Below are positions 30,429 through 42,650 of a stretch of DNA of 64,000 nt, piece after piece. The position numbers were made by a program, and so were the translations under genes. Source of the DNA: a cyanobiont of Ornithocercus magnificus (lineage in GTDB: Bacteria; Cyanobacteriota; Cyanobacteriia; PCC-6307; Cyanobiaceae); assembly GCA_007996965.1 (NCBI GenBank), contig BIMP01000001.1, positions 310,001-374,000 on the forward strand, read 5' to 3'. The stretch's first letter is position 1; each line of letters begins with the position of its first letter. The notes below the pieces were generated by a model that was not told the DNA's origin, made no database searches, and saw only the letters and a list, made by a program, of their open reading frames with translations.

Positions 30429-30501
30429 GCCGGGATAGCTCAGTTGGTAGAGCAGGCGACTGAAAATCGCCGTGTCCCCAGTTCAAATCTGGGTCCTGGC
30501 A
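30429..30501 (+). tRNA. trnF: tRNA-Phe (anticodon GAA)
   Basis: A 73-base cloverleaf. The acceptor stem is GCCGGGA pairing with TCCTGGC (one G-T), the D-arm GCTC...GAGC, the anticodon loop CTGAAAA (anticodon GAA), and the T-arm CCCAG TTCAAAT CTGGG. The discriminator is A and CCA is not encoded. Confidence 0.95.
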
Positions 30502-30760: not shown

Positions 30761-32149
30761 ATGACGGCTCGCCTACTTCCCTTGCACACTGTTTTGCGTC
30801 TAGGCCTTTTCCAAAGCTCTGTTGGTGCAATGGCTTATGTATTCAGTGGTCTCCTGAACCGGGTAATGCTTAGTGAACTAGCACTGCCTGGTTTATTGGT
30901 GGGTTCTGTGCTTGCCATAGAGCAGATAATGGCTTTGTCTCGGGTCTTATTCGGCCAAGTTTCAGACCGTTTTGCCATCTTAGGGTGCCACAGAGTTCCC
31001 TACATTTGGGTTGGTACTACGCTATTTAGTCTATTAAGTTTGCTATCGGTGCCATTAATATTTCGTCTATCAGAAGTCACATCTAATACCAGTAAAAGTG
31101 CTACTCTAGCAGTAATAATCATCACATTTGCAGGGCTATTTGCACTTTATGGTCTTGGAATTTCAATGGCTACTACACCATTTCTTGCACTGGTTATCGA
31201 CCGCACTAATGAAGAGGAACGCCCTCAAGTGGTTGGTATTCTTTGGTGCATGTTAAGCATCGGCCTTATTATAGGAGCTATATCAGGTGAGTTAAGTTTG
31301 CGCGGACTTGATGGTGTCATAGATTCAGCAGTGCTTGAAGCGAGCTTATTTTCCTATGTCCAGCGTGTTGTTGCTGTAGTAATGTTACTTACACTTATAG
31401 GTACATGGGGGCAAGAAGAGGCTCACCTGACCCATAGCCGCTCTGAAGACAGAGAGGATTCTTTAAGTTTGACCGAGTCTTGGAGACTAATCCAGTCTAG
31501 CGGCCAAGTATTTGTCTTTGCTGTGTTCTTGTTGCTGTTCACACTATCCCTATTCTTGCAAGATCCTGTCCTCGAGAGTTATGGTGCGGAGATATTCGGC
31601 ATGAGCATCTCTCAGACATCCCGCTTAACGGCAAACTGGGGAATTGGCGTTCTCATCGGTCTGTCGGGCGCCGGATTTTTGATAGTTCCTCGGATCGGAA
31701 AGCTCGCTACTGCCCGTTTTGGCTGCTGGCTAGTTATCTCAAGCATGCTGTTGTTAATAACATCAGGATGTTTAAGAAATTCTGCTCTGCTACTGTCTTC
31801 GACTTTTGTATTTGGTCTTGCCAGTGGCATAGGTACCAATGGTGTACTCTGCTTGATGCTTGATTTTACCCTCTCCCAAGCGGCAGGAGCCTTCGTTGGG
31901 CTGTGGGGTTTAACTCAAGCCTTGTCTCGGGCCTTAGGCAAGCTTCTTGGTGGACTCCTACTGAGCCTAGGCCGTCTTATCGAGCCTGACCTTGGGTTTT
32001 CTAATTCCTCACTCCTACCTTTTCTATTAGTATTAGTAGTTGAAGGCCTGATAGCAATTGCAGCTCTCTTGGTTTCATTCCAACTTAGTATGAAGACTTT
32101 CCGCGAGGATACGAGCGGGATGCTCAGTCAAGTCCTCGAACTGGAATAA
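30761..32149 (+). CDS. PucC/BCD-family major facilitator
   Basis: A 462-residue protein with about twelve membrane segments and the PucC-family start LRLGLFQSSVGAMAYVFSGLLNRVM, with FGQVSDRF and HRVPYIWVGT. In cyanobacteria and purple bacteria the family is proposed to move or place chlorophyll/bacteriochlorophyll during antenna assembly. Direct function here is unproven. It is the last gene before the phycobilisome rod locus and points into it, but a 97-base gap separates them. Confidence 0.85.
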   Translation: MTARLLPLHTVLRLGLFQSSVGAMAYVFSGLLNRVMLSELALPGLLVGSVLAIEQIMALSRVLFGQVSDRFAILGCHRVPYIWVGTTLFSLLSLLSVPLIFRLSEVTSNTSKSATLAVIIITFAGLFALYGLGISMATTPFLALVIDRTNEEERPQVVGILWCMLSIGLIIGAISGELSLRGLDGVIDSAVLEASLFSYVQRVVAVVMLLTLIGTWGQEEAHLTHSRSEDREDSLSLTESWRLIQSSGQVFVFAVFLLLFTLSLFLQDPVLESYGAEIFGMSISQTSRLTANWGIGVLIGLSGAGFLIVPRIGKLATARFGCWLVISSMLLLITSGCLRNSALLLSSTFVFGLASGIGTNGVLCLMLDFTLSQAAGAFVGLWGLTQALSRALGKLLGGLLLSLGRLIEPDLGFSNSSLLPFLLVLVVEGLIAIAALLVSFQLSMKTFREDTSGMLSQVLELE

Positions 32150-32246: not shown

Positions 32247-32693
32247 ATGACAGACATATATACACCCAGTATCGACTCACTAGTCTCTAGGTTAGACATC
32301 GAGAGTGAGTCACACCACACTACTAAGGGAGGTATTCTGAGAATTGACCTCAAGCTTGATGACCTTAGGCTTTGGCGCGAGACCCTTGCCGCCATGGTTG
32401 TTAAGCCATGCAATCTGCTACTCGCTTGTGAGGATAGCGATGGAGCTCTGCGAGATACACGGTTAACTTGGGTGGTGGGGTCAGCTATCAGGTCAGGCTA
32501 TATCAACAACCCTAGGGAGATTTGTCCACTTCTTGAGTCTTTGGGTGTTACTGCCTCACTCGCAGCTATTGTCCCCCAACAATGCCCAGGTCTCGGATGT
32601 GATGTTACCTGGGCATTCTATCTAGAAAGGCATGGCTGGCTTACTGCTTCCCCTGTCTTATCAGACGACTTAACACCGGTGGCCTTCCCTTGA
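32247..32693 (+). CDS. Unknown protein at start of the rod locus
   Basis: A 148-residue protein I cannot assign. It appears soluble, with GGILRIDLKLDDLRLWRETL and a cysteine-containing segment QQCPGLGCDVTWAFYLERHGW near the C-terminus. Its stop overlaps the start of the phycobiliprotein-like gene by four bases (TTGA), so the two are probably translated together and may work together. Unknown ('unk') genes are known at this end of marine Synechococcus rod loci; I infer it is one of them. Confidence 0.6.
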   Translation: MTDIYTPSIDSLVSRLDIESESHHTTKGGILRIDLKLDDLRLWRETLAAMVVKPCNLLLACEDSDGALRDTRLTWVVGSAIRSGYINNPREICPLLESLGVTASLAAIVPQQCPGLGCDVTWAFYLERHGWLTASPVLSDDLTPVAFP

Positions 32694-33277
32694 GAGAACG
32701 AAACGACTCAGATCTGATTCGCGAGCTTGCTCGGCATGCAAGAATCCTTGGATTAACATCCAGGCTAACAATACCTCAGGATTTGCGTTATATCCTCTCA
32801 GCTGCCGATGGGGCCTCGCGGTTGCTCGAACCTAGTGAAATTAGTCGCCTATGCTTATATTCCGGTGTAGAAATAGGCCCACTTCTCGAACTCCAATCTA
32901 CTGCAGGGAGACTTGTTAATTTAGCCCGTAAACAGCTCTTAAAGCAGGAACCAGCCTTAGTAAAACCTGGAGGAGCACTGTATCAAGAGCAGCGTGCCGA
33001 AGCTTGCTGGCGTGACTGTTTCCATTTCCTAAGACTAAGTCTATATGGAGTTTCTGTTGCCGAGCCTGACCTAACCGATGCTTGTGGTATGGAGGCTTTG
33101 GCTAAGCTATACAAAATCCTAGCTGTACCAGTTTCTTCTCTACTGCTGGCACTCACTGAATTGCGTGAGGTCGCCACAATAGTTTATGGCCAATGGGCTC
33201 CAGCAAAGGACGTGTATCTGCTTGATAAAAGTCTTACATTACTGAGAGAGAAAATTAGCCTTGCCTGCAAAAATTAG
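32690..33277 (+). CDS. Divergent beta-type phycobiliprotein-like protein
   Basis: A 195-residue protein starting with TTG at 32,690. Its centre aligns by eye with phycocyanin beta: EPALVKPGGALY...ACWRDCFHFLRLSLYGV against [12 protein letters not shown]...[17 protein letters not shown], followed by a matching ALAKLYKILAVPV segment. The bilin-binding cysteine equivalent to beta-82 is present as C106. It has an N-terminal extension of about 25 residues and lacks the beta-153 cysteine region. It could be a bilin-carrying accessory protein, an assembly factor or a sensor. The globin-like phycobiliprotein fold is inferred, not proven. Confidence 0.65.
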   Translation: MRERNDSDLIRELARHARILGLTSRLTIPQDLRYILSAADGASRLLEPSEISRLCLYSGVEIGPLLELQSTAGRLVNLARKQLLKQEPALVKPGGALYQEQRAEACWRDCFHFLRLSLYGVSVAEPDLTDACGMEALAKLYKILAVPVSSLLLALTELREVATIVYGQWAPAKDVYLLDKSLTLLREKISLACKN

Positions 33278-33447
33278 CTATCATTTAGTCATCTAAACCT
33301 AGGGCATGTTTGAGAGTTAGCATCAAGTAAGTAAGAATTAGTCTGGATGGGAAAATTCTTGTCGATCCTGCTCAGCATTTCGCCATAAGGTACCCAAAAT
33401 TTCGGCTGCTGTGGCAGGCTCTGTAGGCCGAACTAGTCTTAACTATC

Positions 33448-34131
33448 TTGGACTACTACCTTTCACTATCTGCCTGGTCACCGCCAGAGCAAACAAAACC
33501 AGAGAGGTTAAGTAGTGAACTTGATGCGAGAGGAGCTGATTGGAGTGGTTGCTCTCTTGGGAAAGTAGACTTGAGTGGCGCTCGCCTATGTCGTTGTGAC
33601 TTGCGTGGTGCTAACCTTAGCAACTGTGTACTCGATGGGGCTGATCTTCGTCTCGCCCGTTATGACAGTTTTACACGCTGGCCAGAAAATTTTAACATTA
33701 GTAGCTCTGGAGCTGTTGGGCCAGGTGCACATCTTAATGGAGTATTTTTAAATGGGAGTGATCTACGGGGCATGGATCTACGGGGTGCACATGTGATGGG
33801 TGCATACCTGAGCGGAGCTGATCTAAGCGGCGCGGTAGTTGATGGTGTAAGCTTTGCTGGCTCCGACCTCCGAAATGCTATCTTGAGAGGCTGCAGTTGC
33901 CGCAGCAGCAGATTTGGGATGTGTCAGTTAGACTTTGCAGATTTTCGTGGTGCCGACCTAACCAAGGCAGATATACTGGGTGCAGAATCTATTCGCGGAG
34001 CTGATTTTTCTCTAAGTTATGGGCTTGAAACACAAGCGCCAAAGTTACTTGAGCGTGGATACTATGAGCTAGACTGCTGGAATGCTTTGACCAGGCAGAA
34101 CACAAGAGAAACTTTAGAAAGTTTGATTTGA
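33448..34131 (+). CDS. Pentapeptide-repeat protein
   Basis: A 227-residue protein rich in A(D/N)L-type pentapeptide repeats (DLRGANLSN, GADLRLA, GSDLRGMDLRGAHV, GADLSGAVV and further) spanning about residues 25-195. These fold into a right-handed quadrilateral beta-helix. A function in the phycobilisome is unknown; proteins of this kind occur in marine Synechococcus rod loci. The start is TTG 33,448 by the open frame; no better start is obvious. It precedes cpeC by 211 bases. Confidence 0.78.
   Translation: MDYYLSLSAWSPPEQTKPERLSSELDARGADWSGCSLGKVDLSGARLCRCDLRGANLSNCVLDGADLRLARYDSFTRWPENFNISSSGAVGPGAHLNGVFLNGSDLRGMDLRGAHVMGAYLSGADLSGAVVDGVSFAGSDLRNAILRGCSCRSSRFGMCQLDFADFRGADLTKADILGAESIRGADFSLSYGLETQAPKLLERGYYELDCWNALTRQNTRETLESLI

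Positions 34132-42125: not shown

Positions 42126-42650
<525 letters not shown>

Follow-up and report, generated by a model that had tools for sequence, protein, structure and literature searches.

Allophycocyanin-like (Apl) proteins were reportedly named by Montgomery et al. in 2004 as a class of biliproteins outside light harvesting, and the class is said to be defined by a 28-residue extension over allophycocyanin together with retention of the chromophore residues. Only the AplA of Fremyella diplosiphon is said to have been reported with a covalent chromophore and to be absent from phycobilisomes. Here we describe a gene of this family, and the short gene unk4 that it overlaps, in a stretch of 64,000 nucleotides from a cyanobiont of Ornithocercus magnificus (Cyanobiaceae; assembly GCA_007996965.1, contig BIMP01000001.1, positions 310,001 to 374,000 of the forward strand). 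This whole stretch is referred to as the window, and coordinates are given relative to its first letter. In marine Synechococcus the gene order is unk4, aplA, cpcGII and then unk5, which encodes pentapeptide repeats (Six et al. 2007, PMC2246261). The same paper cites F. diplosiphon AplA as a photosensor of unknown function that is not linked to the phycobilisome. Within the literature searched, mentions of cyanobacterial aplA were confined to Six et al. 2007 and a handful of papers on genomes.

The gene at 32690-33277 is almost certainly aplA of the Apl family. The loci of RCC307 and WH7803 display the order described by Six et al. 2007, with aplA homologues in the same place (52% and 41% identical to AplA, respectively), and across the full alignment the identity of AplA to nine homologues from picocyanobacteria ranges from 37 to 50%. 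Homologues of unk4, 45-50% identical, are found directly 5′ of aplA in picocyanobacteria. Given the matching gene order and the homologues of both AplA and unk4, the pair is therefore unk4-aplA and the pentapeptide gene starting at 33448 is unk5. The upstream gene moreover fits the unk4 of Six et al. 2007, a short protein whose gene lies immediately before aplA or cpcGII in picocyanobacteria with phycoerythrin. An original prediction, made by a model from the DNA letters and their open reading frames, had called the preceding gene unknown; aplA, unk4 and unk5 are in fact already known and named (PMC2246261). The features of the pair are as follows.

32247..32693, + strand: unk4, an open reading frame of 148 amino acids (aa) with an ATG start, directly preceding aplA.
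32690..33277, + strand: aplA, allophycocyanin-like protein of 195 aa with a TTG start, assigned by PF00502 match, Apl clade and synteny.
32690..32693, + strand: TTGA overlap of 4 bp, in which the stop of unk4 is shared with the start of aplA.
32690..32773, + strand: N-terminal extension of AplA, ~28 residues, from the alignment offset to ApcA, with a predicted helix at residues 6-16.
33005..33019, + strand: bilin-site signature C106-W107-R108-D109-C110, kept across Apl sequences.
33017-33019: C110, second cysteine of the signature, typical of picocyanobacterial AplA.

The homology of AplA to phycobiliproteins is not due to chance, as it scores 84.9 bits against the Pfam Phycobilisome family PF00502 (cut-off 22.2; E 7.4e-24) and also matches 156 distinct sequences in the PDB, the top match being allophycocyanin alpha (E 2e-14). 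The AlphaFold model of AplA (predicted local distance difference test score, pLDDT, 89.4) aligned to phycobiliproteins with the phycobiliprotein fold (Z ~13). The root mean square deviation (rmsd) was ~2.5-2.7 Å in rows restricted to the globin core and 3.2-4.1 Å in most rows taking in the N-terminal helices. At most, these rmsd values hint that the N-terminal helices may be placed differently. In the alignment, residue 38 of AplA pairs with residue 10 of ApcA and there are therefore 28 extra N-terminal residues, in which the predicted structure has an extra helix at residues 6-16. C106 is the counterpart of the bilin cysteine, R108 and D109 are those of its contacts, and no residue aligns with the beta-153 cysteine of a second bilin site. 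At the three alpha-beta contact positions compared, the equivalents of Asp13 and Arg17 are kept (D40 and R44) and the equivalent of Tyr18 is L45. The original prediction had already recognised a phycobiliprotein-like product of 195 residues with an extra N-terminus and no second bilin site, and all of this is borne out. Its alignment to phycocyanin beta was correct as regards the PGGxxY and ACxRD regions, but not as a statement of closest kin: among the NCBIfam models, phycocyanin beta (37.1 bits) comes behind both allophycocyanin alpha (50.8 bits) and allophycocyanin beta (48.6 bits).

A tree of 51 proteins placed the 36 Apl rows together, and a branch supported at 100/100 separated them from every alpha, beta and core subunit (ApcA, ApcB, ApcD, ApcF and the subunits of phycocyanin and phycoerythrin). 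The Apl branch is long (0.98), and the F. diplosiphon sequence was not among the rows of either the tree or the alignment. AplA is therefore neither alpha-like nor beta-like, and the proposal of a third beta-like protein beside three normal sets gives way to membership of the Apl family; the three sets themselves are present beside aplA in the window as mpeBA, cpeBA and rpcBA. Nor does AplA belong with ApcA (50.8 bits against the NF058521 cut-off of 270, and a separate branch) or with phycocyanin beta (37.1 bits against the TIGR01339 cut-off of 279.3, and no second bilin cysteine). A viral origin was considered and rejected, with no AplA found in 50,697 phage records or in IMG/VR.

A closer inspection of the bilin pocket revealed that every one of the 71 distinct Apl sequences has C106 and W107. 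D109 is kept, as is R108 in 70/71, the exception being an N (L084/L110). The conserved bilin cysteine followed by R and D, noted in the original prediction, is thus a property of the family, and neither of the two findings set out beforehand as arguing against that prediction, a failure to match the phycobiliprotein fold or a C106 that varies among homologues, was encountered. The tryptophan after the bilin cysteine sets Apl apart from the other phycobiliproteins of this genome. The second cysteine, C110, is found in 41 Apl sequences as CWRDC, in addition to a CWNDC form, and this position is F, Y or L in most non-picocyanobacterial families. Together, the pocket and the predicted fold suggest that AplA carries a single bilin on Cys106.

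To determine the distribution of Apl, 145 genomes belonging to the class were searched with a profile, against which Apl proteins score at least 90 bits and ordinary phycobiliproteins ~75 or less; a few intermediate matches at 80-90 bits were left out of the Apl count. Phycoerythrin was scored in these 145 genomes with the CpeA of the window as query, a search that tells the alpha subunits of phycoerythrin and phycocyanin apart. Of 131 genomes from outside the picocyanobacterial family, 32 contained both Apl and phycoerythrin, six Apl only, two phycoerythrin only and 91 neither (Fisher p 4e-22). The association was seen in 13 GTDB families. When Apl labels were shuffled within families the co-occurrence count reached a maximum of 26, and 0/20,000 shuffles attained the 32 observed. 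The genes are also linked: apl lies on the same contig as cpeA and no more than 25 kb from it in 19/32 genomes, and no more than 4.1 kb from it in eleven. Within the picocyanobacterial family (a sample of 300 genomes), aplA was found in 57 of 59 genomes with MpeA (phycoerythrin II), both exceptions being at most 76% complete, and in 25 of 32 with CpeA only. It was found in none of 76 Prochlorococcus-type genomes, whose only phycobiliproteins are one phycoerythrin pair, and in five of 133 genomes without a phycoerythrin match. All five are drafts, and in the one inspected (G392) phycoerythrin-type linker genes adjoin aplA, so its lack of phycoerythrin is read as an assembly gap. One group of MpeA-bearing genomes (g94, G184; loci L123, L124) has aplA divergent from cpeB and without unk4.

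Since Apl is kept with phycoerythrin, usually in or near its gene cluster, we tie AplA to the phycoerythrin system, and a role there is likely. As it has no alpha or beta partner, bears an extension and falls on a separate branch, AplA probably lies outside the alpha-beta ring; it keeps its pigment-attachment site, yet a part in light harvesting is improbable. Our best explanation in full, that AplA carries a bilin and serves the phycoerythrin system as an accessory or sensor from outside the phycobilisome, has in our estimation about an even chance of being right. AplA would then be a soluble protein of phycobiliprotein fold, neither rod nor core subunit, with one bilin attached to Cys106 by a lyase. 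The pocket of Trp107, Arg108 and Asp109 would set the state of the bilin, and the extra N-terminal helix would relay that state instead of allowing entry into an alpha-beta ring. Standing alone, AplA could report light colour or the supply of phycoerythrobilin, tuning phycoerythrin production. The invariance of the bilin cysteine leads us to favour a bilin-bound reporter rather than a carrier, but the evidence separates the two poorly, and the choice of reporter or sensor is a tentative one to which we give slightly less than an even chance. Both roles, bilin carrier and light sensor, had been put forward in the original prediction.

Several observations weigh against this explanation. The bound bilin, a place outside the phycobilisome and a signalling output are all inferred for AplA, which has no fused output domain or regulator. 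Six genomes outside the family (G003, G011, G031, G083, G086, G121) contain Apl but no detectable phycoerythrin, therefore phycoerythrin is not strictly required. Genomes of the same family are still related and the co-occurrence counts are not fully independent. Moreover, a carrier or chaperone role predicts identical co-occurrence.

Such a carrier or chaperone would hold phycoerythrobilin, or a young phycoerythrin subunit, while phycoerythrin is being assembled and pass it to lyases, sensing nothing. The co-occurrence and linkage with phycoerythrin are equally expected of it, the bilin pocket is kept, and the genes near apl encode lyases and HEAT-repeat proteins, among them CpeF and an NblB-like protein. 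A HEAT-repeat gene is found no more than 1.5 kb from apl in 20/26 loci outside the family. One group of these neighbours is a close family of ~219 aa, for which the nearest model is NblB, matched far below its cut-off. At high score this family is found in 19 genomes, with phycoerythrin in 19/19 and Apl in 18/19, which counts in favour of our best explanation as well. Another group matches the CpeF/MpeV-type HEAT protein of the window. However, a covalent thioether site (Cys106, 71/71) is better suited to a permanent chromophore than to hand-over, and Prochlorococcus-type genomes manage one phycoerythrin without AplA (0/76). A carrier is thus the rather unlikely, though by no means negligible, alternative to a reporter.

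The first idea about this locus was that unk4 and AplA form a conserved, obligate module of two proteins, such as a sensor with a partner or a dedicated lyase. The overlap with the preceding gene, seen in the original prediction as TTGA at 32690-32693, is real, and an overlap of 4 bp (TTGA, GTGA or ATGA) is kept in 9/10 picocyanobacterial unk4-aplA pairs. The overlap is most readily explained by translational coupling within a single cluster. In addition, 77 of the 87 family genomes with aplA also carry unk4. However, 23 family genomes have unk4 but no aplA, and 17 of these are Prochlorococcus-type; the reverse, aplA but no unk4, holds for 10 family genomes and for each of the 38 genomes with Apl outside the family. 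The module was dropped after these genome counts and we regard it as improbable; the coupling that had been proposed holds for the overlap but not as an obligate partnership. Instead, unk4 tracks phycoerythrin, since it is retained in Prochlorococcus-type genomes that lack aplA. It was found in 47/59 MpeA, 31/32 CpeA-only and 17/76 Prochlorococcus-type genomes, none of these 17 having aplA, and in the genomes sampled it is confined to the picocyanobacterial family. In the two Prochlorococcus-type loci that were read (L125, L126) unk4 lies between a PucC-type transporter gene and the phycoerythrin genes. The window shares the PucC-unk4 order with them, aplA then following; in RCC307 the gene before unk4 is cpcT-like instead of PucC-type. 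Internal stops or split matches in unk4 of some Prochlorococcus-type genomes (G159, G190, G192) look like ongoing loss.

The unk4 protein had no match above cut-off in Pfam, none in NCBIfam and a best E of 0.077 in PHROGs, and a profile search for solved relatives returned none. A structural comparison of both proteins had been suggested in the original prediction: AplA matches the phycobiliprotein fold as above, but unk4 has no fold match in the PDB (best Foldseek E 0.86; best structural Z 3.6, to a designed protein). As its model is only fair (pLDDT 77.7), unk4 may yet have a known fold.

That AplA is a minor structural subunit, a rod or core cap or a terminal piece like ApcD or ApcF, is very improbable. 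It has the same fold and keeps the equivalents of Asp13 and Arg17, but Apl falls outside all structural subunits in the tree, carries the 28-residue extension and has L45 in place of Tyr18, aplA is a lone gene that has neither an alpha nor a beta partner, and F. diplosiphon AplA is described as not phycobilisome-linked (PMC2246261). The assembly cap once suggested for this gene accordingly found no support. There is next to no chance of a decaying, functionless phycobiliprotein duplicate, for despite the long branch and TTG start the pocket is invariant in 71 sequences from many families, the frame is open across deep divergence and aplA is kept in 57/59 MpeA genomes.

The phycoerythrin link, in at least 13 families, offers a lead on the function of Apl, to which the literature searched assigns none, and would predict a phycoerythrin phenotype in strains and under light colours that allow phycoerythrin production. 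For unk4, the data place the gene with phycoerythrin itself, even in Prochlorococcus-type genomes without phycobilisome genes. One may speculate further that Apl at large is a single-bilin globin of phycoerythrin control, kept in the cluster and reporting phycoerythrobilin supply or green light, in which the C110 of picocyanobacteria could alter or double the linkage, but we consider this doubtful. In the literature searched, Montgomery et al. 2004 excepted, there was no Apl-phycoerythrin link beyond Synechococcus, no account of the unk4-phycoerythrin pattern and no HEAT-repeat neighbour of apl; a report of the first may exist, and priority is not claimed for any of the three.

Other features of the window that bear on the cluster are listed below.

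30761-32149: PucC-type transporter gene, directly 5′ of unk4.
32704-32721: palindrome.
33448..34131, + strand: unk5, a protein of pentapeptide repeats encoded in the same cluster (PF00805, E 1e-26).
42153-42650: MpeA gene.

A tRNA-Phe is located at 30429-30501, near the 5′ edge of the phycobilisome rod cluster; in Baltic picocyanobacteria a tRNA-Phe repeat is found at the cluster edge (PMC4139726). Promoter and terminator scans of the region gave no more than chance expectation. The cpcGII gene, normally between aplA and unk5, is missing at 33277-33448, and the genome's highest-scoring CpcGII match lies on a different contig (G000 C8:19689, 199.7 bits). Several further families of cyanobacteria have proteins like unk5 in their phycoerythrin clusters (L128, L129, L131, L132, L136, L137; 141-174 bits), and unk5 is therefore not restricted to Synechococcus. 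The MpeA protein is 99% identical to that of two genomes of another genus (G316 and G403). A recent transfer was considered on this basis and dropped, as identity to G316 over the mpeBA stretch is no more than 78% at the DNA level.

Compared with the marine Synechococcus account (PMC2246261), the locus is alike in having homologues in RCC307 and WH7803 and in the presence of aplA in phycoerythrin II genomes. It differs in the absence of cpcGII between aplA and unk5. Moreover, aplA is also found in 25 CpeA-only genomes and so is not confined to phycoerythrin II strains. Picocyanobacterial AplA differs from most other Apl families in having C110 instead of F, Y or L, and L45 instead of the Tyr18 equivalent. 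ApcA is the best sequence and profile match of AplA and shares with it the globin core and bilin cysteine, whereas the separate branch, the extension, the CWRD signature and a score below cut-off distinguish AplA from it. With CpcB, AplA shares the PGGxxY and ACxRD regions and a beta-82-type cysteine, but it is without the second bilin site, scores below cut-off and lies outside the beta branch. The AplA of F. diplosiphon, by its description, is reportedly like the protein of this locus in both the 28-residue extension and the kept bilin site.
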